Shown: piece after piece, positions 4,492-60,354 of the stretch
Layout: the number at the start of each line of letters is the position of its first letter
Numbering within the stretch: position 1 is the stretch's first letter
From: Bacteroidota bacterium
Lineage (GTDB): Bacteria; Bacteroidota; Bacteroidia; Bacteroidales; JACABE01
Direction: 5' to 3'
NCBI GenBank assembly: GCA_026391675.1
Contig: JAPLDQ010000045.1
Span: 62,001-126,000 of the forward strand
Length of the DNA: 64,000 bases
Notes under the pieces: generated by a model
What the model was told of the DNA's origin: nothing
What the model saw: only the letters and a program-made list of their open reading frames with translations
The model's database searches: none
Position numbers and translations under genes: made by a program

Positions 4492-7400
4492 ATGCAAGAT
4501 ATTATTGATAAAATTAAAGAATTGCCGATTGATGCAGTTCTTAAGAACTACCTCTCACTTAAAAAAGCAGGTAAAAACCTGCAGGCCTGCTGTCCGTTTC
4601 ACCAGGAGAAAACACCAAGCTTTAGCGTAAGACCTGCCAAAAACAGCTTTAAATGTTTTGGCTGTGGCGTAGGTGGTGATGCCATCAGCTTCGTGATGAA
4701 ATTTAAAGCACTGGATTTTATGGGTGCGGTGGAAGAAATCTGCAATGATCATAGCATTGATTTCCATAAAAAAGAATATAAAAAAGAGGATGTTCAGGTG
4801 GTAGAACTTAAGGAAGAACTGGCAAAGCTTAACGAACTGGCTGCAGGATTTTACCATAGTCCGCTGGCTGAAGATGAAATTGACGAGAAGTTTGATTTTA
4901 TCTTTTCACGCATCCGCAGCTGGGAACTGATGAAGGAGTTTGAAATTGGACTGGCTCCTGATGCCTGGGACGGCTTTTTAAAACTGGCCAAAACGGCTGA
5001 GTATAAAGAAGAATTTTTATTGAAAAGCGGACTGATAAAAGAATCTGAAAAAGGCAAACAATATGATTTCTTTAGAAACCGTATGATATTTCCCATCCGT
5101 GATATTGTTGGCCGCTTGGTTGGCTTTGGTGCAAGGGTGATGCCCGGTGCTGATAAGAAGGAGGCTAAGTACCTGAATTCTGCTGAAAGTATTATTTATA
5201 ACAAAAGCAAGGTGTTGTATGGTTTGCACCTGGCAAAAACAAGCATACAGGAAAAAGGCATGGTTATTATAACAGAGGGTTATACCGATGTTATCAATAT
5301 GCACCGCATTGGCCATACCAATACTGTGGCTACCTGCGGCACTTCGCTAACTGAGGAGCATTGCAAAATACTGAAACGTTATAGTATGAATGCGCTGATA
5401 TTGCGTGATGCCGACAAAGCAGGACGCAAAGCGGCCATACGTGATGGTGAAATGCTTTTGAATGCAGGTTTTAATGTTTTTATTGCCACCGGAATCCCGG
5501 AAGGCGAAGATCCTGATAGCTGGTACAAATATCCGAATCAGAAAATTGAGAATGAAGATTATGTGATGTTCCGCATACGCGAGGAATTAAAAAATACGGA
5601 AACGGATCCACTGAAACGTGCCGAAGCCTTGCACGAAATTGGCAAACTATTGAACCTGGTGCAGCGCGAAACGCTGCGCTCCACTTATATCAATTTTATT
5701 GCCAAGGAATATAAGAAGCAAAACATCACCAAAAAAGATATCACAGATGTAATTAAAGAAACTGCCCAGGACGAAGATACTGAAAAAGCTATAGAACTGG
5801 ATACCGAAGGTTTGCCCAGCTATGTTGACAAGCATGAGTTTGTGAAATACTGTTTCTACGAAAGCCAGGAAGGGATTGAAAAGAACCAGTATTATTACCG
5901 TGGCTATGGCAGGATAAGCAATTTTGTGATGTTTCCGCTTTACCACATTGAAAGTACCAACGACACGCGCAAGCTGTTTGAAATCCTGAACAAATACAAC
6001 GACCGCAAGGTGATTGAAATGGATATGCAGAGTATGGTTTCTACCATGAATTTCAGGAGATCGATAGAAAGCCGAGGCAATTTCCTATTTGAAGGCTCTG
6101 ATACGCATTTTATGCACCTGAAGCGTAAATGGTACGACCAAACCAAATACTGCAAGAAAATTGACCGCCTGGGCTGGCAGGGGGCAGGTTTCTGGGCATG
6201 GAGCAACGGCATAAGCAAAACGGATGGCAGTTTTATCCCGATTGACAGCAATGGCATAGTTGCCTTTAATGATGTGCATTATTTTATACCGGCTTTTAGC
6301 AGCATTTATAAGGATGATAATTCTATCTTCCGGGACGAAAGGAAGTTTAAGTACATAAAATCGGAAAACAATAATATTACGCTGTATGACTGGGCAGAGA
6401 AGTTTATTGCCGTTTACGGTGAACAGGCAAGGCTTACGATTTGCTTTTACCTTACCACTTTATTTAGTGATCATATCTTTAATAAGCTTACCAACCTGCC
6501 GATGCTTAATATTTACGGACAAAAGGGTACCGGTAAAAACGAACAGGCTATGAGTTTGCTTTGCCTTTTCGGCCATCCACAAAACGAGCTGCAGATAAAT
6601 AATGCCACCAAGCCCGGGATAAGTGCCCACTTGGAAATGTTTATCAATGCACTGAGCTGGATTGATGAATACAAAAACGCCATGCCACTGGAATATATTG
6701 AAGCATTGAAAGCCATTTACAACCGCAATGGCCGTACCCGTGGCAGCATAAAGGAAGGCGTTAAAAAGGAAAATACCCAGATTGACAGCATGGCCATAAT
6801 TACCGGGCAGGAAATGCTTACGGCTGATGTGGCTTTGTTTAGCAGGGTATTATTCCTGCATTATCATAATACTGAACATACCCAGGAAGAAAAGGATTTG
6901 CTGGAAGAATTACGCGCCATACAGCAAAAAGGCTTAAGCCATATTACAACAGATATTTTGCGCCACCGTGATCATGTAATTGAAAGGTACCGCTATAGTT
7001 TTGGCGAAGTGCAGACTGATATCATGAAACGCATGGATAAGAATATTATTGATGATAGGATTATGCGTAATATATTTTCGGTGTTGGCCAGCTTCCATTG
7101 TTTGCAGCAATTGATTAAGCTTCCGTTTACCTACGAAGAGCTGATTGAAACTGCCATTGACAATATGAATTACCACAACCAACTGCTGCGCAATACCAAT
7201 GAACTTAGCCAATTCTGGAATATGCTGGAAACTTTGGTTGAAAAGGATCTGATAAAGGAAAGGATTAATTTCCGCATTGAGCCATTAAGCGATATTACTA
7301 TAAACGTTGGAGCCAACAGGGTGGATAAAAAGATAGTTCCCACGCAAAACGTGCTGCTGCTTAAATGGACCGGTATATACCAGTTGTATGCTGAATACAG

Positions 7401-7689
7401 CAACCGAAGCGGAATAAACATATTACCCGAAAGCACACTGCTGCATTACATTGAAACCAGTAAGCCTTTTATTGGCCGTAAAAAAAGCGTAAGATTTGAC
7501 AAGGATACCAACCAAGCATTGTGTTTGAAATACAAAGACCTTGGCATTAACCTGGTGAGATATAGCGGAAATACAGTTAATGAAAAGGATGATGACATAA
7601 AACCGGATTATTCTTCAAATTTTGATGAAGATGGAAATAAGGTTATTGCTCCGGTATTGAAAAAAGTTGAAGATGAATTACCGTTTTAA
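4492..7689 (+). CDS. Primase-helicase fusion (CHC2 zinc finger, TOPRIM, P-loop ATPase)
   Basis: 1065 aa replication protein. Residues ~30-60 hold a DnaG-type zinc finger (C34-P-F-H, then K-C55-F-G-C58-G). Residues ~125-250 form the RNA polymerase N-terminal basin (FRNRMIFPIRD, GFGARVM). TOPRIM motifs follow: ITEGYTDV at ~260 with the catalytic Glu, and ILRDADKAGRKAA at ~303 with the DxD-like acidic pair. The C-terminal half has a P-loop region (YGQKGTGKNEQA at ~676, ALSWIDEY at ~720), so one polypeptide can prime and probably unwind DNA, as in other phage primase-helicases. The Walker A ends in GKN rather than GKT/GKS, which is unusual. No separate DnaB-type helicase gene is visible in the prophage. 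Confidence 0.88.
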   Translation: MQDIIDKIKELPIDAVLKNYLSLKKAGKNLQACCPFHQEKTPSFSVRPAKNSFKCFGCGVGGDAISFVMKFKALDFMGAVEEICNDHSIDFHKKEYKKEDVQVVELKEELAKLNELAAGFYHSPLAEDEIDEKFDFIFSRIRSWELMKEFEIGLAPDAWDGFLKLAKTAEYKEEFLLKSGLIKESEKGKQYDFFRNRMIFPIRDIVGRLVGFGARVMPGADKKEAKYLNSAESIIYNKSKVLYGLHLAKTSIQEKGMVIITEGYTDVINMHRIGHTNTVATCGTSLTEEHCKILKRYSMNALILRDADKAGRKAAIRDGEMLLNAGFNVFIATGIPEGEDPDSWYKYPNQKIENEDYVMFRIREELKNTETDPLKRAEALHEIGKLLNLVQRETLRSTYINFIAKEYKKQNITKKDITDVIKETAQDEDTEKAIELDTEGLPSYVDKHEFVKYCFYESQEGIEKNQYYYRGYGRISNFVMFPLYHIESTNDTRKLFEILNKYNDRKVIEMDMQSMVSTMNFRRSIESRGNFLFEGSDTHFMHLKRKWYDQTKYCKKIDRLGWQGAGFWAWSNGISKTDGSFIPIDSNGIVAFNDVHYFIPAFSSIYKDDNSIFRDERKFKYIKSENNNITLYDWAEKFIAVYGEQARLTICFYLTTLFSDHIFNKLTNLPMLNIYGQKGTGKNEQAMSLLCLFGHPQNELQINNATKPGISAHLEMFINALSWIDEYKNAMPLEYIEALKAIYNRNGRTRGSIKEGVKKENTQIDSMAIITGQEMLTADVALFSRVLFLHYHNTEHTQEEKDLLEELRAIQQKGLSHITTDILRHRDHVIERYRYSFGEVQTDIMKRMDKNIIDDRIMRNIFSVLASFHCLQQLIKLPFTYEELIETAIDNMNYHNQLLRNTNELSQFWNMLETLVEKDLIKERINFRIEPLSDITINVGANRVDKKIVPTQNVLLLKWTGIYQLYAEYSNRSGINILPESTLLHYIETSKPFIGRKKSVRFDKDTNQALCLKYKDLGINLVRYSGNTVNEKDDDIKPDYSSNFDEDGNKVIAPVLKKVEDELPF

Positions 7690-7692: not shown

Positions 7693-7974
7693 ATGAGAGG
7701 AAACAATAGCATAAGCTGGACTGCTGCAGAAACTGATTTCCTGTATGAAAATAAGGGAAGGATGAGTATGATTGCAATGAGTGAAACGCTTGGCAAAACA
7801 GAAACCCAGGTATATGCTAAAATATGGCGTTTAAACTTTAAGGAGCAGCATGCAGCTGAAGTTAAAAAACAATTCCTTGATTATATGCCTGCGGAGCTGG
7901 ATGGTGAAGTGAGTGCAGGTGAAAAAAGGAAGAAAGATTATGGAGAATTTTTTGAGAATTATAAACCTAAATAA
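7693..7974 (+). CDS. Myb/SANT-like HTH protein
   Basis: 93 aa. Residues ~7-52 (SWTAAETDFLYENKGRMSMI, then AMSETLGKTETQVYAKIWRL) match a SANT/Myb-like three-helix DNA-binding unit with the leading 'W-T-x-x-E-x-x-x-L' and a C-terminal recognition helix. The rest is a polar tail. It starts three bases after the primase stop, so it is probably co-expressed with replication functions. A DNA-binding accessory or regulator is plausible; the target is unknown. Confidence 0.6.
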   Translation: MRGNNSISWTAAETDFLYENKGRMSMIAMSETLGKTETQVYAKIWRLNFKEQHAAEVKKQFLDYMPAELDGEVSAGEKRKKDYGEFFENYKPK

Positions 7975-7984
7975 ATTAAAAATT

Positions 7985-8284
7985 ATGAAAAAAATGTATT
8001 TTAAAAATGAAGATTCTGAAATGGCTCATCCAATAAAAACATTATTAGAAGAAGCTAAAGAAGAAGGATTAACCGAAATAACAGTCTGTGAAGCAGTAAT
8101 AAGCACAGATAAAGAATACTTCTTTTGCAGAGCCGCTGGTGAAGTTTGCCAGATTAACATGTATTGCGTTCCATGTGGCAAAGAATGCGAAGATTATGAG
8201 CCGTGTAACGGTAAATCTGGGCGATGTAAACATAAAGGTAAAATTTATGATTGGGGTGAAGAAAAAACATTTAAAGTAAAGTAA
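7985..8284 (+). CDS. Cysteine-rich hypothetical protein
   Basis: 99 aa from the ATG at 7985. An upstream in-frame ATG at 7913 lies inside the previous gene and is less likely. The C-terminal part is rich in Cys (CRAAGEVCQINMYCVPCGKECEDYEPC and one more C), suggesting a zinc-binding domain. No family recognised. Confidence 0.55.
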   Translation: MKKMYFKNEDSEMAHPIKTLLEEAKEEGLTEITVCEAVISTDKEYFFCRAAGEVCQINMYCVPCGKECEDYEPCNGKSGRCKHKGKIYDWGEEKTFKVK

Positions 8285-9325: not shown

Positions 9326-9843
9326 ATTTTCAAACGCCTAAACATATTGCAAAATACATGTGTGACATGATACCTGATCATGCTGTAACAGTTCTGGAAC
9401 CGACTCCAGGAGAAGGTAATATATTAAGTTTTTTGAATGATTATGATGTAACTGCTCCAGCTAATTTTTTTGAGCTCGAAAAGAGCAAATTTGACTGTAT
9501 TGTTATGAACCCTCCATTTTCAGCAAAATCAGCATTTGGAGTGCCTGATGGTACTGAATATAAAGGGATGAAGCTAGGATATCATATCCTTAAAGAATGT
9601 ATGAAAATGAGTAATCATATTATTGCTTTGATGCCATGGTTTACCTTAAGTGATTCTGATGTTAGACTCCGGTACCTGAAAAATTTCGGACTGATATCAT
9701 TAACAGCTCTTCCAAGAAAAACATTTGAGTATGCCAGGATACAAACAGTAATACTTGAACTTGAAAAAGGATATCAGGGGGAAACACAATTTAGAGTATT
9801 TGATTTATTGAACATTGAGCAACAAATAAAAATTGAAATTTAA
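9322..9843 (+). CDS. Adenine-N6 DNA methyltransferase-like protein
   Basis: 173 aa. Motif I is VLEPTPGEGNIL (residues ~31-42) and the catalytic motif IV is NPPF (in CIVMNPPFS, ~residues 68-76), as in class I SAM-dependent N6-adenine or N4-cytosine methyltransferases. The N-terminal FQTPKHIAKYM segment is the Q/TP motif that often precedes motif I in phage DNA methylases. The protein is short, with a small target-recognition part, and could act as an orphan methylase protecting phage DNA. ATGA overlap with the radical SAM gene. Confidence 0.78.
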   Translation: MNFQTPKHIAKYMCDMIPDHAVTVLEPTPGEGNILSFLNDYDVTAPANFFELEKSKFDCIVMNPPFSAKSAFGVPDGTEYKGMKLGYHILKECMKMSNHIIALMPWFTLSDSDVRLRYLKNFGLISLTALPRKTFEYARIQTVILELEKGYQGETQFRVFDLLNIEQQIKIEI

Positions 9844-9890
9844 TTAAAATATATAGCTCTGGGCGGGCTTAATAAAACCCACAAAACAAT

Positions 9891-10133
9891 ATGAATACTA
9901 ATTTAGGAAAACACGGCAAAGACGTAATTACAGGTTTTGAAGGTACTATTACTTCAAAACACGAATATTTAACAGGATGTACCCAATATGGTATAGTGCC
10001 GAAAATAAAAACAGATGGTACGCTTGGAGATACCCATTACTTTGATGAAACGAGAATTGAAGTTACAGGTGAAGCAATTGAAATTCCTGGCACAAAAGAA
10101 AAACCGGGATGTGACTCAAGGGAACGTCCGTAA
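9891..10133 (+). CDS. Conserved small phage protein
   Basis: 80 aa. The pattern KHGKDVITGFEGTITS, followed by KHEYLTGCTQYGIVPK, resembles a small beta-rich protein family common in phages of many hosts (typical form 'K-D-x-V-T-G-F-x-G-x-V-T ... YLTGC-x-Q-Y'). Role unknown. It is the last gene before an intrinsic terminator, so it closes the early/replication operon. Confidence 0.65.
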   Translation: MNTNLGKHGKDVITGFEGTITSKHEYLTGCTQYGIVPKIKTDGTLGDTHYFDETRIEVTGEAIEIPGTKEKPGCDSRERP

Positions 10134-10145
10134 ACATTTTACACC

Positions 10146-10170
10146 ACCGCTCAATGAGCGGTTTTTTTTG
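10146..10170 (+). terminator. Intrinsic terminator of the early operon
   Basis: Stem ACCGCTC/GAGCGGT with a 3-base AAT loop (10146-10162), followed by eight T residues. Confidence 0.8.
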
Positions 10171-10232
10171 GCGGTTTTCTGTAAAAAAGCTATTAAAAAA
10201 TAAATATTGATTTCTAAATTAAAAAAAGGCTC

Positions 10233-10398
10233 ACTACACTCACTACATACACTACAATTTTAAAAATCAATTACTTATACTCAATACAAATGTAGTCAAA
10301 TGTAGTCAAATGTAGTGACTACAACTGACTACAAAAACGGGGGTTTGTAGTCATCGTAAAACGTTGTAAATGTGGAGTGTAGTGTATGTAGTGAGTGT
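10233..10398. repeat. GTAGT/ACTAC motif array with a 21-bp inverted repeat (candidate origin or operator)
   Basis: Non-coding. A perfect 21-bp inverted repeat (10236-10256 and 10378-10398) encloses three tandem 10-bp iterons CAAATGTAGT (10287-10316), the last of which runs into the palindrome TGTAGTGACTACA (10311-10323). In all, about 11 GTAGT or ACTAC copies occur in 166 bp, spaced about 9-10 bp apart in the arms and centre. Organised iterons plus inverted repeats between replication and late genes fit a phage replication origin or a late-gene control region. Confidence 0.6.
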
Positions 10399-10454
10399 TT
10401 TCATCAAATATAGTGTTTAAGATTGTAAATATTTTTTTGTAAAAAAGTGAAGAA

Positions 10455-11039
10455 ATGATGAAAAAAAGTGAAAATAAATACACTTATGGTGCAGAAAATA
10501 TGTATTTTTGTTTAACTAAATACTGTTCTTATATGATAATCAGCATTCCGATAAAACCATATCTGAAAGATTTCCTTATTAATATGTATGGGCAGGAGCC
10601 TATACCGGCCAGTAAAAAGAATTTTATTGGGATTATACTGGAACCGATGCTTAATAAACCTCCAGCCGATTATGTTCCTGTATCGTATCATCCTGATCCA
10701 AACAGAATCTTAGTGAAGCTGATCAGAAATAATAAGGAAAAAGAGATGAGAAAGAATCCTTTGTATTATTTCTATATATCAACGGATGATGAAATAAACT
10801 TCCAGCATTATGTTGTAAAGTTTTTTAACCAGACTTTTATTTGCTATTCGGATGCTGCTGTAGATATAAGTATAGAACATGATATCAAAAAACATGATTT
10901 GAAAGATATATTTGACAATTTTTGTCAAAAATATTCCATTTCATCAGATAATGCCACTTATGAGATGCTTAAGAAAAAATATTACCGCTATAAATGCAGT
11001 ATTAAGCATGTTAATAATCGATTGTTAATAAACTGTTAA
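10455..11039 (+). CDS. Hypothetical protein between origin-like array and head genes
   Basis: 194 aa from the ATG at 10455 (a second ATG follows directly). Basic overall. The C-terminal part (DLKDIFDNFCQKYSISSDN followed by YEMLKKKYYRYK) looks like a compact helical, DNA-binding-like segment. No firm family match. Standing alone after the iteron array and before the late genes, it could bind the array or activate late transcription, but this is positional inference only. Confidence 0.55.
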   Translation: MMKKSENKYTYGAENMYFCLTKYCSYMIISIPIKPYLKDFLINMYGQEPIPASKKNFIGIILEPMLNKPPADYVPVSYHPDPNRILVKLIRNNKEKEMRKNPLYYFYISTDDEINFQHYVVKFFNQTFICYSDAAVDISIEHDIKKHDLKDIFDNFCQKYSISSDNATYEMLKKKYYRYKCSIKHVNNRLLINC

Positions 11040-11088
11040 ATATTTAAATTATTACGGACGGTTGTGTCCCCTGATAAAATATAAACAA

Positions 11089-11532
11089 ATGAATAAGTCA
11101 GACAACTTAAATCCCACTATAATTTCGGTAGATTTTATAGAATTATCAAAAATTGATACCATAACTGCAGGCAGTGATCAGCATCACCGCATTGTTACGC
11201 TGAAACAAAATGAAACTGCTGAGAACATATATATGACTCCGGGTAGTGCACAGTTTAACGGTGAACATCAGAACAGTGATGAAGGTGGATTAAAAAACTG
11301 CAGTTTAAATTTGTCCTACCCAGGTGATGGTGGTTCTGTTCCGGGATTATTACTTGCTATTGAAAATAAACGTGGCGTTGTTATTTTTGAATATGCTGAT
11401 AAAAGCAAAAGGGTGATGGGTGAATTGGATAATCCGGTATTGGTAAATTTTAGTTTTAGCACCCAACAAAAGGCATATAGTATCAATTTTGAGCACAAAA
11501 GCATAAAATTGCCTTATTTACTGCAAGTTTAG
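11089..11532 (+). CDS. Hypothetical protein upstream of the head genes
   Basis: 147 aa from the ATG at 11089; the frame opens earlier at a TTG (11062) that is less likely. Beta-rich, with segments KNCSLNLSYPGDGGSVPGLL and NPVLVNFSFSTQQ, resembling small virion or head-tail proteins. It stands just before the first late promoter. A small structural role is possible; not recognised. Confidence 0.5.
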   Translation: MNKSDNLNPTIISVDFIELSKIDTITAGSDQHHRIVTLKQNETAENIYMTPGSAQFNGEHQNSDEGGLKNCSLNLSYPGDGGSVPGLLLAIENKRGVVIFEYADKSKRVMGELDNPVLVNFSFSTQQKAYSINFEHKSIKLPYLLQV

Positions 11533-44646: not shown

Positions 44647-45831
44647 TTAAATTTTTTTCATATAGGACTCAAAGAGTTCCATGCCACGTGTTTTCATCTC
44701 ATCGTCGTGATGGGTATAAATCATGGTGGTTTCAATTTTGCTGTGGCCTAACAGCTGTTGTAACGTTACAAGGTCTTTGGTTGACCTGTAAAAATTAGTT
44801 GCAAAGGTATGCCTGGCCACGTGCATGGATAGATTCTTGCGTATACCGCAAAGGATGGCAATTTCTTTCAGGTATTTTCGGGCAGTATCTTCGTTTATAT
44901 CTTCGAAGAAATATTTACGGCGGCCTTCTTTGCGGATATCGTCCAGAATACGCATAGTCCCTTTTGATATTGGCAAATCCATAGACTTATTTTCATGTTC
45001 AGTTTTTTGTGGAACGAAGCTGATCACATTATCATATACGTTTTTTTCGCTTAGTTTTACAATATCGCTGATACGCATACCACAGGTATATACCGAAAAT
45101 AAAAACATCCTTAATATATTGTGCTGTAAAGGGTGATTTTGTTTTAATAAGCCAAGACTATAAGTATTTTCAAGCTTTTCGAGTTCTTTTTTTTCTAAAA
45201 ACACAATTCGGCCGCTTCCTCTTTTTATTTTTACCTCACGGAACGGGCATTTATGCAAAGAATAATTATTTTTAAAGTAGATCCTTGAGAATACTTTCAG
45301 GTTTTTTAAATGTTTGCTCCGGGTATTGATGTTTAAACCGCTTTTTATAAGGTAATTATCGAAGTTGGTGACAAATTCAGGGGTAAATTCATCGGGTGTA
45401 AATGATTTATTGTAGCGTTTTAACCATTCCAGCATCTGATTGTAAGCTGTTATAGTAGAAGCGTTGCGGGCACCAGTAAGATTATGTATTTCCAGCGTAA
45501 TCCAGTTTATCATATTCTCTGAACTGGTTTGGAGTTTATGGTATTCAGCTTCGAATTGCTTTTTATTAATAATTTTATGCTGGAGGCTGTAATCCTTTAA
45601 AATAGGATGTATTTTTTTGTAGATAATTTCATTGATCAGCAAATTGTAATCTTCGGCCAGGGGATGGGAATCCTTTACCTTCTTTTGTTCGTTATCCCAG
45701 AATACAGGTTCAACATTTACAGCTGTTGGGATGAATATACGGCTGTTTGATTCGAAATATACCTTAATATATACCTTGGATGTTCCATCCTTAGCAATGC
45801 GTTTCCATAAAACCGGATAATATTTTATCAT
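44647..45831 (-). CDS. int: Tyrosine integrase of the prophage
   Basis: 394 aa. N-terminal Arm-DNA-binding domain (YYPVLWKRIAKDGTSKVYIK ... FIPTAVNVEPVFWDNEQKKV), SAM-like core-binding domain (~115-205), then the catalytic domain with Arg253 (CGMRISD), His337 and Arg340 (HVARHTF), His363 (LGHSKIE) and nucleophile Tyr372 (TMIYTHHD). All catalytic residues are intact. Starts beside the right arm-type sites, which overlap its promoter region, so the enzyme may regulate its own gene. Catalyses integration and excision at the 482/46044 repeats. Confidence 0.92.
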   Translation of the reverse strand: MIKYYPVLWKRIAKDGTSKVYIKVYFESNSRIFIPTAVNVEPVFWDNEQKKVKDSHPLAEDYNLLINEIIYKKIHPILKDYSLQHKIINKKQFEAEYHKLQTSSENMINWITLEIHNLTGARNASTITAYNQMLEWLKRYNKSFTPDEFTPEFVTNFDNYLIKSGLNINTRSKHLKNLKVFSRIYFKNNYSLHKCPFREVKIKRGSGRIVFLEKKELEKLENTYSLGLLKQNHPLQHNILRMFLFSVYTCGMRISDIVKLSEKNVYDNVISFVPQKTEHENKSMDLPISKGTMRILDDIRKEGRRKYFFEDINEDTARKYLKEIAILCGIRKNLSMHVARHTFATNFYRSTKDLVTLQQLLGHSKIETTMIYTHHDDEMKTRGMELFESYMKKI

Positions 45832-45997: not shown

Positions 45998-46027
45998 AAA
46001 AAGGCTTCCAGTTGTGAGTGGAAGCCT
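45998..46027 (-). terminator. Minus-strand terminator shielding int
   Basis: Stem AGGCTTCCA/TGGAAGCCT (46002-46010, 46019-46027). On the minus strand it is followed by a T run. Would stop host transcription entering int from the right. Confidence 0.65.
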
Positions 46028-46043
46028 GAGTGATCGTTGTAAA

Positions 46044-46056
46044 GTGGTCCCACCTG
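46044..46056 (+). repeat. Prophage attR core (13-bp direct repeat)
   Basis: GTGGTCCCACCTG, the exact partner of 482-494. The match to a tRNA 3'-end complement continues four more bases here (GACT, 46057-46060) but not at attL. Confidence 0.75.
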
Positions 46057-46185
46057 GACTAATATTATGATTTAATTTAAATTAAACGGAGTTAATTAAA
46101 GTATTGTATATGTACTGATATTAGGGAGTATATGAAGTTAATATTTAAATAAAATTTCATAAAATTAATTTGATTTAATGTAAAA

Positions 46186-46218
46186 TTGTGTGTAATTTTG
46201 TGTGTAAATTACACACAA
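46186..46218. promoter_or_regulatory. TTGTGTGTAA repeats before second integrase
   Basis: Direct copies at 46186-46195 and 46198-46207 and an inverted one (TTACACACAA, 46209-46218), ending right at the ATG at 46219. Likely an autoregulatory or recombinase-binding site. Confidence 0.5.
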
Positions 46219-47526
46219 ATGAAATTAAAGTATAGTATCAATTTTAGAGTTGAACAAAGAAAAGATAAAGACGGCAATCAGATTGTTAAAAATATCCCTA
46301 TTATAGTTGACTTCACTTTTAATGGTCAAAGGATTAAAGATCCTATTGGTTATAGGGTAGACCTAAGCCAATGGGATGAAACTAAACAACTGGTTAAAAG
46401 AAATAATTTTAATATCAATGTTATAAGTTCATTGATAATAAATCAGCGTATAAATACAATTAAAACGCATTTAATTGATATATACACAGAGAAAACAAAC
46501 TTAAATGTACCATTAACTCCCCTCTTAATCAGAGAAGAATTAAAAATACGATTAAATGATGCAAAGCCTGTTCAGGCTACTCAACTTAATGTCATTGATT
46601 TATTACAATTGTTTATTGACTCAGAGAGCCACCAAAATAGTTGGGCAAATGGAACTAAAATAAAATTCAATACATTTAAAACCCATTTATCAGATTATAA
46701 AAGCAATCTGCAATTCAGTGATATTACCGAAGCATTTCTTTTAAAATATATTGACCATTTAGGAACAACGTTGAATTTTAGCAATTCCACCAATGCTAAA
46801 TATTTAAAGATGTTCAGATGGTTTTTAAATTGGGCTTCAAAAAAAGGATATAATACGAATTTTGAATATAAAAATTTTGAATATAAATTTAAAGGGACTA
46901 CTACAAGCAACCTTCAAAAAAATATAGTATTTCTTAACTGGGAGGAATTAAAACATTTAAATGAATTAAATTTAAGTTTTAATAAAATGCTTGATCAGAC
47001 CAGGGATATTTATTGTTTCTGTTGCTTTACTTCATTAAGATACTCTGATATTGCCAACTTAAAAAAAAGTGATTTTAAAACTGATAATAATGGCAACTAT
47101 TATATTGAGATTTTAACTGTTAAAAACGACGAAAAATTAAATATTGAGTTAAATAAATATGCTTTAGCAATCTGGAATAAATATAAAGATATCGAATTAA
47201 TGGATAACAGGGCTTTCCCTGTTATTAGTAATCAAAAATACAATAAATATTTAAAAGATGTAGCACAGTTTGCCGGATTTAAAAATAAAGAAACGGTTAT
47301 CACATATAAAGGCAACCAACGAACAGAATTAACGTATGAAAAATGGCAATTATTAACCACACATACTGCCCGTAAAACATTTATTATAAATGCCCTTTAT
47401 TTAGGAATTCAGCCGGATATTATAAGAAGCTGGACTGGTCATAAAGACCATAAAACTATGGAGCAGTATATTAAAATTGTGAATGAACAAAAACGAATTT
47501 CAATGAATAAGTTTAATGAAATTTAA
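46219..47526 (+). CDS. Second tyrosine recombinase, outside the prophage
   Basis: 435 aa from ATG 46219; a TTG 33 bases upstream extends the frame through the repeat block and is unlikely. Arm-type N-domain (LKYSINFRVEQRKDKDGNQI), core-binding domain, and catalytic residues Arg274 (SLRYSDI), His382 and Arg385 (HTARKTF), His408 (GHKDHKT) and Tyr417 (EQYIKI). Quite different from the prophage integrase and reading away from attR. It may belong to a second, neighbouring element or a decayed island at the same hotspot. Confidence 0.9.
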   Translation: MKLKYSINFRVEQRKDKDGNQIVKNIPIIVDFTFNGQRIKDPIGYRVDLSQWDETKQLVKRNNFNINVISSLIINQRINTIKTHLIDIYTEKTNLNVPLTPLLIREELKIRLNDAKPVQATQLNVIDLLQLFIDSESHQNSWANGTKIKFNTFKTHLSDYKSNLQFSDITEAFLLKYIDHLGTTLNFSNSTNAKYLKMFRWFLNWASKKGYNTNFEYKNFEYKFKGTTTSNLQKNIVFLNWEELKHLNELNLSFNKMLDQTRDIYCFCCFTSLRYSDIANLKKSDFKTDNNGNYYIEILTVKNDEKLNIELNKYALAIWNKYKDIELMDNRAFPVISNQKYNKYLKDVAQFAGFKNKETVITYKGNQRTELTYEKWQLLTTHTARKTFIINALYLGIQPDIIRSWTGHKDHKTMEQYIKIVNEQKRISMNKFNEI

Positions 47527-47849
47527 GTTCAATAATAACCACTAAATCTACTTTTCTTACAAATCTTATTAAGATTTTATAATATTTATTAATGTTATAA
47601 ATCCTTTCAATTATTTTATTTAATTGATTCTAAATATAGAATTTCTAGAAAGATAAATTTCCGCAGATTTATTCATTTGTTTTAACATTTATTAAGAAAT
47701 CTATCTAAAAATCTTAATTTTTATAAATTCTGAACTTTGTTCAAATTATCGTTTAAAATAAAAAACATCACGTTTATCAAAGTAATAACTACTTAAAAAT
47801 ATTTTTTAAGTCATATTTAAGATTTTTTTTAATTGTTCCTATTTTCACA
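47527..47849. other. AT-rich non-coding gap
   Basis: 323 bp with no gene, no clear terminator and no promoter better than chance. Confidence 0.5.
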
Positions 47850-47873
47850 ATGATTTTAATCAATCTTAATCAT

Positions 47874-48227
47874 ATGAAAAAGGTACAAATATTTTTTCTT
47901 CTGGCTGTAATAATATGTATTAGCCATACAACATTACATGCACAACGAATATTTTTAACTGATAGTGTTAAAAATGCTGATATTAAAGTTTTTGTCACTT
48001 CCGATAGTACAAATGCTGATTTGAAAGTGTGTCTAGTTGATTCAGTAAAAAAAGTTTATAAAGACGGAACTTGGTTTATGGTTAATCAAGTACAATTTTC
48101 AAATCTTTCTGTAAAAATTGTTACCAATCCCCTCGAGTCAGATTTAAAAATCTATTATGTAAGTTTACCTAAAAAAGCAGGATGGGTAGATACAAATAAG
48201 AGATTTTATTACCGCCGTAAGAAATAG
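47874..48227 (+). CDS. Small secreted DUF6150-like protein
   Basis: 117 aa from ATG 47874 (an earlier in-frame ATG at 47850 would put 8 residues ahead of the signal peptide). Signal peptide KKVQIFFLLAVIICISH ... HAQ, then repeated short beta units: NADIKVFVTSDSTNADLKVC, LVDSVKKVYKDGTWF, ESDLKIYYVS. This layout, with 'A-D-L-K-V' repeats, is typical of the DUF6150 proteins of Bacteroidota. Role unknown. First gene of the rightward secreted-protein cluster. Confidence 0.65.
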   Translation: MKKVQIFFLLAVIICISHTTLHAQRIFLTDSVKNADIKVFVTSDSTNADLKVCLVDSVKKVYKDGTWFMVNQVQFSNLSVKIVTNPLESDLKIYYVSLPKKAGWVDTNKRFYYRRKK

Positions 48228-48245
48228 TACTAAAAACAAATATAT

Positions 48246-51200
48246 ATGTTTAAAAAGACATTAAAAAGCAATTTACTATTTAAAATATGGGTAGTCGTTG
48301 CAATTATTTCATTTGGTATTTTACCTTGTTTAGCTCAGGATACTATTATTGAAATTGGTAGTCAGGATGATAATACAGAATATTTCCCGATAGATCGCTA
48401 CCACAACTATTCAAGATGGGAAGGAATTTATCAATCCAATGAAATCAATCATAGTGGATATATAACTAGTTTAGGTTTTTATTTATCAGGTAATTTTAAC
48501 GAAGAAGATTTATTAAATGTAAAAATCTATGTTAAATCAACTTCTTCAATTATTTTAGAAAGTGGAGATTTTTCTTTAAATAATTATTTGCTTGTATATG
48601 ATGGTAATTTATATTATATAAATTATGATGGATGGATTAATTTTAATCTGACTACTCCTTTTTATTATAATAATATTCAAAATCTACAAATTGCTATAGA
48701 ACATTCAAATCAATATTTATCAAATGCAGATATCTATTGGGCAGTTTCAAATACTAATGAACTTCAAAATCGGGCAAATAATAGTAATGTAGCAATGCCT
48801 GTATTTTTAAATGAAACAAATATAAGACCTATTCTTAGATTAGGAATGAACTGTATGTTTATTAATAAAGTGGATAACAAAAGTATTTGTATAGGGAAAA
48901 GTACTCAGATAGGTGCAGATACAATAGTTATTGGAGCAGGCGGAAATTACACTTACCAATGGAGCCCAAATGAAGGGATTAATGATGTTACATTAGCAAA
49001 TCCAATTGTTTCTCCAATTGTAACAACTGAATATACTGTAACTGTTAATACTATTGATAGCACATGTACTGGACAATCCTCATATCCAGTAGTTGTATTT
49101 GTTAAGGATGAAAATTCTGAGGTCAGAATGGGCGACCAAGATGTAGTTTCAATGTGTAGTGGCGTATTTTATGATAGTGGAGGATATGATGAAGAATATC
49201 ATTATAATGAAAATAGAACACTAACAATTTATCCTTGTGATAGTTTACATAATGTAAGTGCTGTTTTTCAGTCATTTAATCTTGAAAGTTCGGAAAATTG
49301 TGATGCAGATTGGTTGAAAATATATGATGGAAATAATTCTAATTGTAATTTAATTGGAATTTTTTGCAGTAATGATAGGATTGATGAAATAATTTCAAGT
49401 CATTTGAGTGGAGCATTAACCTTTGTTTTTCATTCAAATGATGAAGGAAATGGAAACGGCTGGATTGCAAATATTAGTTGTGTGGATAAAGCATGTAGAG
49501 TTATTGCTGGAACGGCAACTATAACTTCAGCAATAAATGATTATAATTCTGGTAATGCTGTGTTAGGATTAAATGGATATTTAGGCACTTTTGTAAAATG
49601 GCAGGATTCATATAACAGGATTGATTTTAGTGATATATTTAGTGATTCTATTAATCCACATACAATTAATACATCTACTACTTATTATAGGGCTGTTGTT
49701 ACTTATGTTAATAGCAATGGACTAAATGTATGTTATAGCAATGTAATTAAATATTTATTGGGAATAAATTATTATGTAAATGATGCAACTCAGGATTCAG
49801 ATATTTTTTGTACTTCTATAGGCAATAATAACAATGATGGATTAAGTAAAGAAAATCCTGTATTAAACCTTTCTTATATTATAAGTCATTATGATTTAAA
49901 AGCTGGTGATGTGGTTTTTGTGGATGCTGGGATCTATTCAGAAGATATTTTATTCGGACCATATGATTATGGAGATAGTTTAAAAAAGGTAAGAATAATT
50001 GGTGCAGGAGCATTAAATAAAACTAAAATTGAAAAAGACGGAAATACTGTTACTTTTGAAAGTACTTCTAACATTGAATTTAAAAATATATTTTTTAAAA
50101 ATAATGCTAGCGATGGCAAAACAATACGTATAAATTATTCAAGTGGAATATTATTCAATAAATGTATTATTGAAAATGGAGGTGAAAATTTAAATATTAT
50201 TGGAAGAAGTCAGGAGGTAGGCGAATTTTCTGATAATAATCGGTTTTATAATAATATTTTTAAAACAAGGAATCGAGATTATCATAATATTAAAATTACA
50301 GGTATTGTAAATAATTCTGAATTTAAAAATAACATTTTTCAGTATATGGGTGATGATGCTGAATTAGGTTTTTTAATTGGTTCTAATGAATATAATGGCA
50401 ATCCTTTTAATATAAATATTGATTCAAATTATTTTAATGGATATTTAAACGCAATTTATGCTGTAGGCAATAATAATTACCCTATTGGAGGATTAAAAAT
50501 AAAAAATAACTGGATAAATTGTATTGATACTGCAATTAAATTATTTAATATTAATATTGATTCTTCAGAAATTAGCTTTAATCGTATTCGTGGTAAAGTT
50601 AATATTGAAAAAGTTTCTAAACTTAAAATCTTTAATAATTTTATTTCAAATTCAGATGTAGGTATATCATTACAAACCCAAGCAAATGATATTGGGATTT
50701 ATTATAATTCATTTTATAATGCAGTTAATAATATTCAATATTATAATCTTTATAATTCAAATAATTTATTTGTTCAAAATAATATTTTCTACAATACATC
50801 TTCCAGTTCTGGTAATGCATGTTTGAGCATGAATGAATGTTCAAATAATAGTAATGGAAATCAACTAGATTCATGTAATAATAATTTGTATTATACACCA
50901 AACGGAGCTTCATTTGCCAATTTTGGTTCAAGTTCATATTCTACGATAGAAGAATTAAAATTAGCAGACCATGTTATTGGAACAGCTAATGGTGATGAAA
51001 ATTCAATTACTAGCAATCCTTTGTATGAAGATTTAGAAAATGGTAATTTATCTGTTGCTGAAACTTCCCCTGTGTTTGGCAAGGGGATTTCTATCCCGGG
51101 TATTACAACTGATATAAATCATTTTTCTCGTTCAAATTCCTCAATTGGAGCTTCCTTATGGCATAGACCTTCAGTCCCTTTTGGTCCTTATGCAATATTA

Positions 51201-51623
51201 AACCGAAAACTAGATGGAGGTTATCATTTTACTAAAAGTGGCTATTTATTGATAAAATATACTGAAGAATATAATAAAGCAAGTAATGCCAAATTGATTT
51301 ATAAGATTTTTAATAATAAAAGAGAAATAATTCTATCTTCTTTTTCTGGTATTGGATTATATGACTTGGGTGGAAATACAAATATTAAATATGGGGATAA
51401 CTATTGTTCTATAAATTTATTTGGATGTGGACAATCTACTGCATTTATGACAAAAGCAATTCCAGTTGGGTATTATATTCTTGAAGTTAGTAATGATAAA
51501 AATGAAAAATGGTATTTACGCTTTAAAAATGAATTTGAAATATTAGGAAATCCTATGTGGGGAGAATGTCTACAGGCACTTCCGGATTTAGAACTAATAG
51601 CTACTCATTTATTAAACCAATAA
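48246..51623 (+). CDS. Secreted CUB / parallel beta-helix protein
   Basis: 1125 aa. Signal peptide to about residue 31 (IISFGILPCLAQ). Then a beta-rich domain, a PKD/Ig-like segment (YTYQWSPNEGINDVTLANP, ~235-275), a CUB-like domain (~298-415: CSGVFYDSGGYDEEY ... CDADWLKIYDGNN ... FVFHSNDEGNGNGW) and a right-handed parallel beta-helix (~508-915) rich in Asn and Ile ladders. C-terminal ~200 residues beta-rich, without a clear T9SS sorting domain. Probable surface adhesin or polysaccharide-binding protein. Confidence 0.75.
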   Translation: MFKKTLKSNLLFKIWVVVAIISFGILPCLAQDTIIEIGSQDDNTEYFPIDRYHNYSRWEGIYQSNEINHSGYITSLGFYLSGNFNEEDLLNVKIYVKSTSSIILESGDFSLNNYLLVYDGNLYYINYDGWINFNLTTPFYYNNIQNLQIAIEHSNQYLSNADIYWAVSNTNELQNRANNSNVAMPVFLNETNIRPILRLGMNCMFINKVDNKSICIGKSTQIGADTIVIGAGGNYTYQWSPNEGINDVTLANPIVSPIVTTEYTVTVNTIDSTCTGQSSYPVVVFVKDENSEVRMGDQDVVSMCSGVFYDSGGYDEEYHYNENRTLTIYPCDSLHNVSAVFQSFNLESSENCDADWLKIYDGNNSNCNLIGIFCSNDRIDEIISSHLSGALTFVFHSNDEGNGNGWIANISCVDKACRVIAGTATITSAINDYNSGNAVLGLNGYLGTFVKWQDSYNRIDFSDIFSDSINPHTINTSTTYYRAVVTYVNSNGLNVCYSNVIKYLLGINYYVNDATQDSDIFCTSIGNNNNDGLSKENPVLNLSYIISHYDLKAGDVVFVDAGIYSEDILFGPYDYGDSLKKVRIIGAGALNKTKIEKDGNTVTFESTSNIEFKNIFFKNNASDGKTIRINYSSGILFNKCIIENGGENLNIIGRSQEVGEFSDNNRFYNNIFKTRNRDYHNIKITGIVNNSEFKNNIFQYMGDDAELGFLIGSNEYNGNPFNINIDSNYFNGYLNAIYAVGNNNYPIGGLKIKNNWINCIDTAIKLFNINIDSSEISFNRIRGKVNIEKVSKLKIFNNFISNSDVGISLQTQANDIGIYYNSFYNAVNNIQYYNLYNSNNLFVQNNIFYNTSSSSGNACLSMNECSNNSNGNQLDSCNNNLYYTPNGASFANFGSSSYSTIEELKLADHVIGTANGDENSITSNPLYEDLENGNLSVAETSPVFGKGISIPGITTDINHFSRSNSSIGASLWHRPSVPFGPYAILNRKLDGGYHFTKSGYLLIKYTEEYNKASNAKLIYKIFNNKREIILSSFSGIGLYDLGGNTNIKYGDNYCSINLFGCGQSTAFMTKAIPVGYYILEVSNDKNEKWYLRFKNEFEILGNPMWGECLQALPDLELIATHLLNQ

Positions 51624-51670
51624 ATGAGTCATTATTTGTCAATTAAATATTAAATAAACAAATTTGTAAT

Positions 51671-52201
51671 ATGTTGAATAACAAAAGTATATTGATAATT
51701 ATCGTAGTTATAATTTTCTCTTTTTTAATATCAATAATAACATTAAAATCCTTTAATAAAAACGAAAAAATTGTTTTTGTTGATTTACAAAAAGCATATA
51801 ATGACTTTAAGATGAATGCCGAAATTGAAAAAGAAGCACAGGGCTTGTTTCAAAAAAGACAATTACTGCTTGATAGTCTACTTAATGATTTGAAAACAAA
51901 AGAAAAAGTTGCGAATAAAAGTAAAAATAAAGGATCAAAAGAAAACCTTGAAAAAGATAAAGAGTTTTATTTTCAGAAAAAACAGTATTTCGATAACAGC
52001 AACCAACAAATCATTGAGCAATATAAATCTAAAATTTGGGAAACAATTCAAACGCTGTCAAATGAATTCGCTAATGAAAATGAAATTGATATGATATTGG
52101 GAAAAGGCGCAGCACAAGCATTTGTGTATGGTAATGAAAAATTTGATTATACTAACTCTTTTATTGAATATTTAAATAAACATTATAGTGAAAAGAAATA
52201 A
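51671..52201 (+). CDS. OmpH/Skp-like periplasmic coiled-coil protein
   Basis: 176 aa. One N-terminal TM/signal segment (SILIIIVVIIFSFLISIIT), then KIVFVDLQKAYNDFKMNAEI, a long coiled coil, and an ending of the type DMILGKGAAQAFVYGNEKFD followed by YTNSFIEYLN, the Skp/OmpH fold order. Skp-type chaperones hold unfolded outer-membrane and secreted proteins. Here, in a cluster with giant RHS proteins, it may be their dedicated chaperone. Confidence 0.75.
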   Translation: MLNNKSILIIIVVIIFSFLISIITLKSFNKNEKIVFVDLQKAYNDFKMNAEIEKEAQGLFQKRQLLLDSLLNDLKTKEKVANKSKNKGSKENLEKDKEFYFQKKQYFDNSNQQIIEQYKSKIWETIQTLSNEFANENEIDMILGKGAAQAFVYGNEKFDYTNSFIEYLNKHYSEKK

Positions 52202-52841
52202 GATAAGTTTAACTTTTTTTAAAGCAAGTAAACTAAAATTTAATCAAAAGACTGTATTTGCATTATTTGTTTTTCTTCTAATACTCACATCCTGTAATAA
52301 AAAAGGGATATCTGTAAGTGAATATAAAGCATGGTTTTCGAAAAAAGATTGTCCTTTGATTAAAAATCAGGAATCAGATGGCTTTCAGTATGAATTGCAT
52401 TATCTGACTTCTGATTTCATGGCATTATCAGAAATTCCTGACAAAGAGCTTAATTCAGGAAAACTGAAAGATGAACTTAAAGCCAGAAACGGCTTATATT
52501 ACTTTCTGTTAAGAATTACGCCAACAAAAGAAAAGCAACAACAATTTACTGAAGAAGAATCAAAATCTATTAATTGGTTAAGTTTTGGTGCAAAAGAAGA
52601 TATGTTAGTGATAGCAGGTAAAGATACCCTTCGTTGTATGATGATGCAATTTGAACCTTCAATGGGGATAATGCCTTACCAAAGTTTTAATATTGGAATA
52701 AATAAGCCAAATGAAGGTACAGACAATATTCCGCAAACCAACCTTGAATTTATTTTTATTGACAAGGTTAATAGTGGAAAACAACTTAAATTTTCATACA
52801 AAGCAAATGATTTTAAACAAATACCAACCTATAAACTATAA
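52188..52841 (+). CDS. Lipoprotein in RHS cluster
   Basis: 217 aa. Overlaps the preceding gene by 14 bases; start GTG 52188. Hydrophobic stretch then the lipobox LTSC (FALFVFLLILTSCNKK). The mature part is beta-rich (FQYELHYLTSDFMALSEIPD, NGLYYFLLRITPTKEKQQQF). Family common next to Bacteroidota RHS loci as far as I recall; no name. Five bases before the giant gene. Confidence 0.65.
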   Translation: MKRNKISLTFFKASKLKFNQKTVFALFVFLLILTSCNKKGISVSEYKAWFSKKDCPLIKNQESDGFQYELHYLTSDFMALSEIPDKELNSGKLKDELKARNGLYYFLLRITPTKEKQQQFTEEESKSINWLSFGAKEDMLVIAGKDTLRCMMMQFEPSMGIMPYQSFNIGINKPNEGTDNIPQTNLEFIFIDKVNSGKQLKFSYKANDFKQIPTYKL

Positions 52842-52846
52842 TACTT

Positions 52847-55800
52847 ATGATTCGTTCAATAAGGAAAACAAGATTATTAAAAATAGTCAGTATAATGATG
52901 GCTATTTTGTTTATCAACGAAATACTTTTTCCAACGGTTGCTTTGGCATTAACCGGTGGACCCAGTCAACCAGAGGTAGAAAGTTTTGCTCCAATAGAAG
53001 CTACTGATATGGTTGATTTATTTACAGGCGATTTTAAATATAATATTCCCTTGATGGATATAGATGGTTACCCTATTAATATCAATTACAATGCTAATAT
53101 TACTATGGATCAGGAAGCAAGTTGGGTAGGATTGGGCTGGAATTTAAACCCGGGTGTAATTAACCGCTCTATGAGAGGTCTTCCTGACGAATTTTGCGGG
53201 GATAACGTAACTAAAGAGTTTAATTTTAAAGAAGACGAAACCTATGGATTGAAAATTTATTTAAGACCAGAAGTTTTTTCAAAAAGCATAGACTTAAAAT
53301 TAGGTTATGTTTTATCCTATAGTACAAAAAATAAATTTAGTGTAGAAACACAAGTTGGAATTACTCCAACATTAGCAAAATTAGGAAGTAGTCAATTAAA
53401 TGTTGGATTAAATTTTAGTTCCTCAACTAATGGTGACTTTAGTTTTACTCCAAAAGTATCTTTTAGTACTGATATTTATGAAAAAGATAAAAATAATGAA
53501 TTAACTGGAAATAAAAGAACATTAGGTTGTGGTATTGGATTTCCTATAAATTCTGTAGCAGGTTTACAATCAATGCAATTAGGATTATCTGCAAGCAGAT
53601 CAACATTTAATACTGAAACTGGAAGATCAACAGGTGTCCAAGGAAGTGGAGATCTTAGTGCTTCATTAAGTTTTGTCCCTAATACTTATACACCTCAAAT
53701 ATCTATTCCTATTGAGAATAGTAGCGCAGAAGTTAATCTGAATTTAGGAACAGATATTATGGTAGTAGATGCTTTTTGTGGTATTGGTGGTTATTATTTG
53801 AAACAAAAAGTAAGAGAGAATACAATTGTAAAACCAGCTTATGGTTATATATACAATAACATTGGAAATAGAAATACAATGGCATTACTTGATTTTAATA
53901 GGGAGAAAGATGTAACATATCATCCTGAAATAAAAAATCTTCCTATAACTAATCAGACGTATGATATTTATACAGTACTGGGACAGGGGGTTAGTGGAAC
54001 ATTCAGGTCTTATTCCAACGATGTAGGTTTTGTTTTTGATGACTTTAACTTTAATACCAGCTCATCATTTAATGCTGGCGCAGAAATTGCTGCAACAAAT
54101 GTAGTAAAAGGTGGTGGAGATGTTACTGTTACTTCGGTATTAACTAATTCTAACTTATGGCAAAATATGAATACTTATGTGCCAAATTATTATGCTACAC
54201 CTAAATATAATTTGCTTTATGAACCTACAAATTTTAAAATGGTTGGCGAAGCAAATATTGAATCTGATTTAAGTTTTATTCAAAATACTGCTTTCCCTTA
54301 CGCTTCAAGATTAGATTTACAAAATAAATTTTTTGGTTTAGATGTTGTATTAAATGATCAGTTTACAAATAATAATACCCATCCTTCACAACAATATCGA
54401 AAACACAGACAAAAACGTAATCAATTCATACAAAGTTTAAATGGGTTTGAAGCATCAAATTGTGGTTTAGAAAAGAATATTAAATCATATAAAATTAATA
54501 ATACAACTACAGCTAATTCTAATCAAACATATATATTTATAAATAGAACTGCACCTATTCCATCAGCAAACACATTACTTCACCCTTCTGAAATTACAAT
54601 AAATAAAACTGATGGTAGTCGTTATGTATATGGTATTCCCGCTTATGTTTCTAAACAGGTAGAAGCTAGTTTTTCTGTTAAAAATGAATCCACACCACCA
54701 TTAGATGGACTTACTACATATACAGCTAAACAAGATTCAAAGAGTAATGATGAAGGTTTTGATAATTTTTATTCCAAAACAATTCTGCCACCTTATGCCC
54801 ATTCTTACTTATTAACAGGAGTGCTTTCACCAGAATATGTAGATTTAACTGGTGATGGACCAAGTGATGATGATCTGGGTAATTATACTAAGTTTAATTA
54901 TACCAGTATGTTCACTGAAACAGGTCTATATTATAAATGGAGAACCCCATTTGAAGAAGGCAAAGTTTCTTATAATGAAGGTACTAGGTATAAAACGGAT
55001 GATGCAAAAGGAAGTTATATTTATGGAGAAAAAGATATATGGTTTTTACATTCTATTGAAACTAAAAATTATATTGTAGATTTTATATTCAGCGACAGAT
55101 GCGATGCTTATGGCGTTAAAGGTGATGCTGGAGGAATAAATAATGTAAATCTACAAAAAAAGTTAAAAGAAATACGCTTATATTCCAAGAAAGACAAGCT
55201 ATATAGTCAAAATCCTACTCCTATTAAAGTAGTGCATTTTGAGTATGATTACTCGCTATGTATTGGTGTGCCTAATAATGATCATAATACAAATACTGAA
55301 AATCCTATAAATCAATTGGGTAAATTAACCCTCAAGAAAATATATTTTACTTATGGTAATTCTCAAAGAGGTAAATTAAATCCTTATACATTTAAATATT
55401 GCAATGAGAATGCGACTTATAATCCAGATTATAAAGCAAAAGCATGCGATAGGTGGGGCTTTTATAAACCAGAAACTAATAAACAACTGGGACCTAATAG
55501 TATGAATTCTTATGAGTTTCCTTATGTTGACCAACGTGAGTTTGATCCATCCGATCCTTTATCTAATATACTTCCTGAACATAAACATTATGCTGATGTA
55601 TATTCTTCCGTATGGAGTTTAACTGAAATAATCACACCTTCAGGGGCAACTATAAAAATGAAATACGAATCTGATGATTATGCTTATGTACAAGATAAAA
55701 GAGCAATGCAAATGATGAAAATAGCTGGATTTTGTAAAGATGAACCAACAACAATTCCTTCCATTCTTAATTATTTATATACTACTCCTTCAGATCAAAA

Positions 55801-59611: not shown

Positions 59612-59616
59612 AAAAC

Positions 59617-60354
59617 ATGATAGATAAAAAACAACCATTATTTCTGATTTTAATTGCATCATGCATTATTTCTTTTATTTCTAATATTAGAGCTCAGGAT
59701 GCAAAAGCTGATTTCAATAAAGCAAACTTAGCTATAGCAAAAGAAAAAGAACTTTATTTTGATATTACATATAATTTTTATTGTTCATCATCTCAAACAC
59801 ATCCCAGCGAAAGCAGTAAATCAAAATATGCAAAAAAAGATAATGCTTATTATACATTCAGTTATGGTGTTGAAACCATTAGCAGCGATAATATTTTGTT
59901 AATGGTAAATGTAAAAGAAAAAACAATATTAATCAATAAGCAGAAAGGTTCGCTTCCATTGTCGGATTTAAATTCAAGAATAGAAAAAACGCTGAAATAT
60001 TGTAAAAAAACTGATTTTAAAGAAGATAAATACGAAAAAATATATATTCTTATAATAAAGAATATTGGCATAGATAAAATTGAAATCCATTTAAGAAAAG
60101 AAGATGCATTCCTGACAAAAGTTATTTTTTTTCAGAATGAAACAGTTTCTACTGTAAAAAATGGGAAAAAGATAAATTGTAAAGACCCTAAAACTGAAGT
60201 CTTAATAAATAATATTATTAAGAAGACTAATGTTGAAAATGAAAAACTTACGATTAAAACATATGTAGCATTGCAAAAAGATGGCTCTTATAAACCGATA
60301 GGATCCTTTAAGAATTTCAAAGTTGAAGACTTAAGGAAAAAAAGTAAAAAATAA
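59617..60354 (+). CDS. Small secreted RHS-cluster protein
   Basis: 245 aa. Signal peptide (LFLILIASCIISFISNIRAQ). Mature part beta-rich with KEKELYFDITYNFYCSSSQT, then YYTFSYGVETISSDNILLMV and IKNIGIDKIEIHLRKEDAFL, a half-barrel-like order similar to LolA-type proteins. Between two giant RHS genes, possibly an export or assembly helper. Unrecognised. Confidence 0.6.
   Translation: MIDKKQPLFLILIASCIISFISNIRAQDAKADFNKANLAIAKEKELYFDITYNFYCSSSQTHPSESSKSKYAKKDNAYYTFSYGVETISSDNILLMVNVKEKTILINKQKGSLPLSDLNSRIEKTLKYCKKTDFKEDKYEKIYILIIKNIGIDKIEIHLRKEDAFLTKVIFFQNETVSTVKNGKKINCKDPKTEVLINNIIKKTNVENEKLTIKTYVALQKDGSYKPIGSFKNFKVEDLRKKSKK

Follow-up and report, generated by a model that had tools for sequence, protein, structure and literature searches.

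A candidate iteron replication origin and its putative primase-helicase initiator in a Bacteroidota prophage

What is the role of a dense cluster of short, oppositely oriented repeats lying between the replication genes and the head genes of a prophage? The question is raised by a 64,000-nucleotide stretch of contig JAPLDQ010000045.1 from a Bacteroidota bacterium (hereafter the window, in whose coordinates all positions are given), which holds a prophage by gene content and carries such an array at positions 10233–10392. The original prediction for this DNA considered the array either a phage origin or a late control region. Our analysis indicates that a temperate phage very probably uses it as its replication origin, with the phage's own primase-helicase as the initiator, the C-terminal end of that protein as the reader of the word TGTAGT, and an architecture that is kept in relatives.

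The predicted components of the array were all recovered. Eleven GTAGT/ACTAC motifs occupy 10233–10392, six on the plus and five on the minus strand, and each of them extends to the hexamer TGTAGT/ACTACA; the array as a whole has no assigned strand, and with ACTACA as plus the orientations run +++ --- ++ - --. Three exact tandem 10-mers, CAAATGTAGT, form an inner iteron block on the plus strand at 10287–10316, as read from the sequence and by repeat search. The perfect 21-bp inverted repeat has a left arm at 10236–10256 (plus strand, containing two ACTACA iterons) and a right arm at 10378–10398 (minus strand), which are 100% complementary with 121 nt between them. The outer iteron arms, 10233–10255 and 10379–10392, enclose both the inner iterons and an A/T-rich stretch at 10257–10290, located between the outer-left and inner iterons, which we propose as the melting region. 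The repeats are 9 and 10 bp apart, about one helical turn, and together with the A/T-rich stretch this matches a generic iteron origin, where such elements accompany the initiator gene.

This organization is far from chance expectation. Against the observed 11 copies of TGTAGT/ACTACA, 1000 dinucleotide-preserving shuffles of 10134–10454 never gave more than 3, and no hexamer of any kind occurred more than 7 times; the longest perfect inverted repeat in the shuffles measured 14 bp, compared with 21 in the real sequence. Across the 48 contigs (4.04 Mb) of the host genome, the spaced pair TGTAGT-N4-TGTAGT has three matches, all of them inside the array. The single-stranded DNA fold of the array has a z-score of -7.46, as the inverted repeats would lead one to expect, and we claim nothing further from it. 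An Rfam search of 9800–11100 gave no match, and a tRNA search found none.

A search for the array beside homologous genes had been suggested. An exact word search of viral contigs (GTAGTCAAATGTAGTC) returned 16 stretches, none of which had more than four copies of TGTAGT within 200 bp; relatives were not identified by a shared exact word. Scanning the neighbourhoods of relatives of the gene that follows the array (10455–11039, hereafter the 10455 gene) for any over-represented hexamer revealed that several hold a dense array of their own with a different word. In these loci the array is situated 3' of a primase-helicase gene, directly so in L004, L032, L034, L037 and L038. The full-length window primase as a single query found no match in viral contigs; an alignment of six primase C-terminal halves succeeded, matching 131 viral and 197 genomic relatives, of which the best 80 from each collection supplied the loci studied here. 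When an array was defined by a score of at least 8 within -50 to +650 nt of the primase stop codon, 89 of 151 loci contained one. The same score was reached in 1 of 131 control regions 3 kb downstream, 1 of 133 regions 4.5 kb upstream, none of 156 regions inside the primase gene and none of 1510 shuffles. A wider rule (at least 8 near the primase or at least 10 anywhere downstream) identified arrays in 115 of 164 loci, 89 of them no more than 300 nt from the primase stop. The 151- and 164-locus sets were not dereplicated; a set of 91 arrays, dereplicated at 90% primase identity, was used for the comparisons of layout.

The 91 non-redundant arrays share a general layout, with a median of 10 repeats over a span of 216 bp. 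Same-strand repeat spacing peaks at 9–10 bp with a second peak at 19–20 bp. The first and last repeats are opposite in 85 of the 91 arrays (orientation shuffles: mean 40.7, maximum 56), and strand switches, at 163, are half as frequent as the 351 in shuffled order (shuffle minimum, 312). The widest gap in the array has an AT content of 0.747 compared with 0.567 for the locus, being higher in 87 of 90 arrays. Inverted repeats of at least 20 bp are present in at least 12 arrays, the median over the arrays being 14 bp; such long repeats simply follow from the inversion of the end blocks. Many of the words fit TGTNNN.

The gene beside which these arrays lie encodes, in the window, a 1065-residue protein (4492–7689, plus strand) in which a DnaG-type primase is fused to a helicase resembling DUF927 proteins, Cch and SaPI (Staphylococcus aureus pathogenicity island) Rep, and which we propose as the initiator. 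Its domains were assigned by Pfam (Zn_ribbon_DnaG, DNAG_N, Toprim and DUF927, the last with an E-value of 5.1e-7) and by the NCBIfam dnaG domain. Residues 586–1065 were modeled from 43 sequences with a pLDDT (predicted local distance difference test) score of 85.9. The model ends in a helix (960–973), a second helix (981–990) and two strands (994–1003 and 1006–1014), an order of elements that we take to be a winged helix. A sequence search of the PDB with two alignments gave no meaningful match. By structure, the best PDB match was Cch of the staphylococcal cassette chromosome SCCmec (5dgk_B), with a Foldseek E-value of 6.3e-8 and a VIA Z-score of 22.4 over 356 residues at a root-mean-square deviation (rmsd) of 4.5. 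SaPIbov1 Rep (8tch_B) was not among the 50 Foldseek matches listed and gave a VIA Z-score of 18.4 over 333 residues (rmsd 5.2, model range 5–438). The next VIA matches were MCM helicases with Z-scores of 16.3 or less. By their first and last residues, the Cch and SaPIbov1 Rep alignments both span the C-terminal end. The protein shows the resemblance to SaPIbov1 Rep and DUF927 helicases that marks initiators of SaPIs and other phage-inducible chromosomal islands (PICIs), and iteron binding by its C-terminal end is predicted.

The original prediction also held that the iterons are read by a specific DNA-binding protein, which the comparison of words and proteins supports, the proposed reader being the primase C-terminal end. 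L004 and L038 share the word GTTAGTT; their primases are 46% identical, the closest pair of the set, and their 10455 relatives 25%. L035 and L039 share CGTACT, with primases 35% and 10455 relatives 25% identical (E 0.16). Conversely, the 10455 relatives of L034 and L037 are 56% identical, yet the words differ, and the primases are 29% identical. Over all 4095 pairs of the 91 loci, word similarity correlated weakly with whole-primase identity (rho 0.097), more strongly with residues 860–960 (rho 0.122) and most with residues 960–1065 (rho 0.190); neither of the latter values was reached in 500 permutations. Helicase residues 660–860 gave a rho of 0.079, which was reached in 18 of 500 permutations. 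After correction for overall identity, a sliding-window analysis placed the highest correlation at residues 986–1025 (partial rho 0.226), followed by 1006–1045 and 966–1005. The predicted helix-helix-strand-strand element and the 966–1045 correlation peak together point to codons 960–1014 (7369–7533, plus strand) as the proposed iteron-reading domain.

Several observations weigh against this interpretation. No array was identified by the wider rule in 49 of the 164 loci, some of which are cut contigs and some weak, and in 26 of the 115 loci with an array it is more than 300 nt from the primase stop. The window itself belongs to the latter, its array being 2544 nt 3' of the primase stop and thus not adjacent to it. 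GC skew, suggested originally as a check, is positive throughout the window with no turn at the array. The sliding-window analysis has a lesser peak at residues 666–705 (partial rho 0.132). Locus pairs are not independent because they share lineages, and among 43 disjoint sister pairs residues 960–1030 gave a non-significant result (p = 0.23) and residues 860–930 gave p = 0.044. Near-identical C-terminal ends with different words also exist, as in L075 and L076 (C-terminal identity 0.87). Finally, identity within the 10455 family itself correlates with the word. On balance, the word is firmly linked to the primase by these comparisons, and the C-terminal end is probably where the iteron-reading domain lies.

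What we infer for the window, from iteron binding and melting to the order of events and origin activity, would proceed as follows. The primase-helicase encoded 2.5 kb upstream would act as the phage's own initiator, its C-terminal domain recognizing the TGTAGT iterons. Two hexamers would assemble on the oppositely pointing iteron blocks, after which the A/T-rich gap would melt, the helicase domain would unwind the DNA and the fused N-terminal DnaG primase would prime synthesis. Relatives would keep this architecture while the iteron word and the C-terminal domain change together, so that, as we propose, each phage would initiate replication on its own DNA alone.

A variant in which the array is an origin whose iterons are read by another early protein that loads the primase-helicase appears unlikely. 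The obvious candidate is the Myb-like product of the gene at 7693, one of the binders suggested originally: the gene sits between the primase and the array, and its product weakly matches phage transcriptional-regulator families (PHROG, E 4.8e-6). A tblastn search (E <= 1e-3) found a relative of it in none of the 114 other array loci, most of which extend no further than ~7 kb from the primase match in each direction, and the word follows the primase.

The second function originally proposed, late control, would make the array an operator or regulatory region for late genes to which the 10455 product or one of its relatives binds; we consider this quite unlikely. Position in the window would suit such a role, as the array ends ~60 nt before the 10455 gene, and among the 85 arrays that have a 10455 relative it lies no more than 400 nt 3' of the array in 43. 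In 33 of the 85, the relative is more than 400 nt further 3' and the array is primase-adjacent; in 4 more it lies further 3' of distant arrays, and in 5 (of the 85, and of all 115 arrays) it is on the 5' side. Ten loci including the window have an array displaced from the primase and adjoining a 10455 relative. An array is also present in 17 of 30 primase loci that have at least 5.5 kb of downstream sequence but no 10455 relative. In 70 loci encoding both proteins, the word correlated with 10455-family identity (rho 0.163, 0 of 500 permutations; partial 0.120 after the C-terminal end) and better with the primase C-terminal end (rho 0.221; partial 0.193). Pairs with 10455-family identity of at least 0.5 and primase C-terminal identity below 0.4 never shared the word (0 of 10); in the converse situation 10 of 20 did. 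The presence of arrays without the gene, the position of the gene and the pair test led us to reject, as a first choice, a late operator with the 10455 product as its ligand, and this product is not our favoured iteron binder. Given its correlation with the word, a helper role for the protein may be considered.

The 10455 product (194 residues, plus strand, 5' of the head genes) is a conserved protein. The gene had been described as lone, which does not hold for the family: relatives occur downstream of 99 of 129 related primases with at least 5.5 kb of 3' sequence. No match to the protein was found in Pfam, PHROG or NCBIfam. The family is widespread and its model is confident (pLDDT 86.2); the model had no PDB match (best Foldseek E 1.8; best VIA Z 4.7), so no DNA-binding fold is indicated, though one may still be present. 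Searches yielded relatives in a single viral contig and, out of 393 genomes of the order, in another 10; one of these ten, L041 (G308), is a spurious match with stop codons and no phage genes; among five same-family genomes, only the window's own has the gene.

It is very improbable that the array serves in packaging (pac/cos), recombination or partition, or that it is a functionless repeat cluster of chance or mutational origin. Packaging sites can take the form of repeat clusters close to phage structural genes, and the window array lies just 5' of head genes, but in relatives the array tracks the primase and not the terminase (89 of 115 within 300 nt of the primase stop), and the common layout, the word correlation and shuffles that never reach the cut-off are unexpected of a chance cluster.

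Some loci depart from the common arrangement. Group B primases (L035, L039 and L040) have little in common with the window protein except the DnaG end, and the 91 arrays do not include theirs; their array scores are 9.6 for L035, 8.0 for L039 and below the cut-off for L040. The L035 and L040 primases are 37% identical and the words differ, the L040 array being weak. L205 and L221, which earlier seemed to lack a primase, have a group B primase (52% and 51% identical to that of L035, respectively) upstream of the array. L036 and L206 have an array and no group A primase on contigs that start close to the array. Among 10455 loci without a group A primase, L208 and L209 score 7.9 and L203, L207, L212 and L214 have no array; in L033, a 10455 relative is present, but no primase and no array with a score of at least 8 were found. 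L081 contains a 60-bp ATCGAA tandem at 5638–5697, separated from the primase by 42 nt, and, at a distance of 2.4 kb, an array of 13 ACTACA copies at 7963–8194; here the wider rule chose the tandem over the stronger ACTACA array. In a 192-kb viral contig, a palindrome whose arms are inverted copies of TGTAGTCAAATGTAGTCA occurs twice (L017, 6448–6500; L021, 1852–1904); it looks unrelated to the array. Hosts of the primase relatives are labelled mostly as Bacteroidota. Relatives also occur in records labelled Alphaproteobacteria, Staphylococcus (metagenome-assembled genomes) and Microcystis phage (L132, L173 and L225), and these labels may be wrong. One metagenome bin, bin-0311, holds three such primases (L126, L127 and L128) with the words TGTAGTT, TTAAGGA and TGTAGGA, as expected if words set incompatibility; the bin may mix hosts.

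A related primase is present in 56 named-phage records, including Flavobacterium, Cellulophaga and Porphyromonas phages, and arrays were scored in 5 of the 56. Three are above the cut-off of 8 (Flavobacterium phage laban6-1, 12.9; Microcystis Mea-Yong924-1, 13.4; Porphyromonas phage019a, 18.8); the laban6-1 array has the word CTCAAC and lies 63 nt 3' of the primase. Cellulophaga phage Ingeline_1 (7.3) and Flavobacterium 2A (7.4) are just below it and were judged arrays by eye from their layout; the candidate array of Ingeline_1 scores no higher than a coding repeat there, which also reaches 7.3. No annotated origin was seen among the listed features of these five records. A search confined to open-access literature, with most papers judged by title, listed none on these origins.

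Around the array, an intrinsic-terminator-like hairpin at 10146–10162 (plus strand) closes the upstream operon just 5' of it; two such sites were found against a shuffle mean of 0.5. Further upstream are a minus-strand gene at the expected repressor position (575–1033, no family match) and a LuxR-type (GerE) regulator (1341–1892, Pfam). The window also encodes a radical-SAM protein, a short N6-methyltransferase-like protein, an SppA/S49-type protease, a weak terminase match (phrog_2, E 0.016), a tape measure protein (phrog_28, E 2.8e-46) and an integrase on the minus strand (44647–45831; phrog_1, E 8.2e-36). Because virion and integration genes are present, the element is not a PICI, that is, a small helper-dependent satellite without virion genes of its own. 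Beyond the integrase, at 46000–64000, G+C drops to 0.25–0.31; a 2254-residue open frame lies at 52847–59611, and its first 665 residues have no PHROG match.

By analogy, the array is a candidate SaPI-like iteron origin, here in a full-size prophage. The SaPI origin lies downstream of the initiator-helicase gene and the initiator C-terminal domain reads the iterons (PMC6092414, PMC7581432), on which Rep acts apparently as two hexamers (PMC7581432). The latter source also relates Cch, with its DUF927 domain, to SaPIbov1 Rep, describes binding of 5-nt iterons downstream of the cch2 gene by the Cch2 C-terminal domain, and assigns the SaPIbov1 and SaPI5 primases to the archaeo-eukaryotic primase (AEP) family. 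The predicted C-terminal half of the window primase resembles SaPIbov1 Rep over the 333 residues aligned. In contrast, SaPIs are satellites with an origin immediately 3' of the initiator gene, whereas the window holds a prophage of full size that has tape measure and integrase genes, its helicase is fused to a DnaG/Toprim primase, unlike the AEP type of SaPIbov1 and SaPI5, and its array is displaced from a position that most relatives retain. SCCmec, whose Cch is the best structural match and shares DUF927, is not a phage and has no DnaG fusion, and only three iterons are reported for Cch2.

Other systems are less close. Phage P4 is a satellite with an origin layout of ori plus crr, unlike the window. 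Its alpha protein is a Toprim-type primase-helicase with a C-terminal origin-binding winged helix (in part PMC4234260), to which the window protein is likened by domain content. According to PMC4234260, pRN1 ORF904 is a primase-helicase with a C-terminal winged helix and an origin directly 3' of its gene; unlike in the window, the primase is of the archaeo-eukaryotic type and a stem-loop takes the place of iterons. At the RepA origin of PLE, a satellite of ICP1, the initiator of a mobile element is paired with iterons in non-coding DNA, as tested by gel shift (PMC7145576); RepA is a RepA_N-type initiator without primase or helicase, unlike the window protein.

A 2018 paper states that this origin layout is found in no replicon but PICIs (PMC6092414); the arrays described here show that layout in full-size prophages. 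We tentatively suggest, as a possibility about as open to doubt as to belief and if anything on the doubtful side, that they mark a large undescribed class of Bacteroidota temperate phages with SaPI-type origins, in which the word, mostly TGTNNN, and the initiator C-terminal end form a fast-evolving matched code that sets replication incompatibility groups and so allows several phages to share one host. For a widespread group of Bacteroidota phages, the array and the primase-helicase provide a candidate origin of replication together with its initiator. The ~90 non-redundant word/initiator pairs form a natural data set from which DNA recognition by such a domain might be learned, and could help predict which phages can replicate together in one cell.
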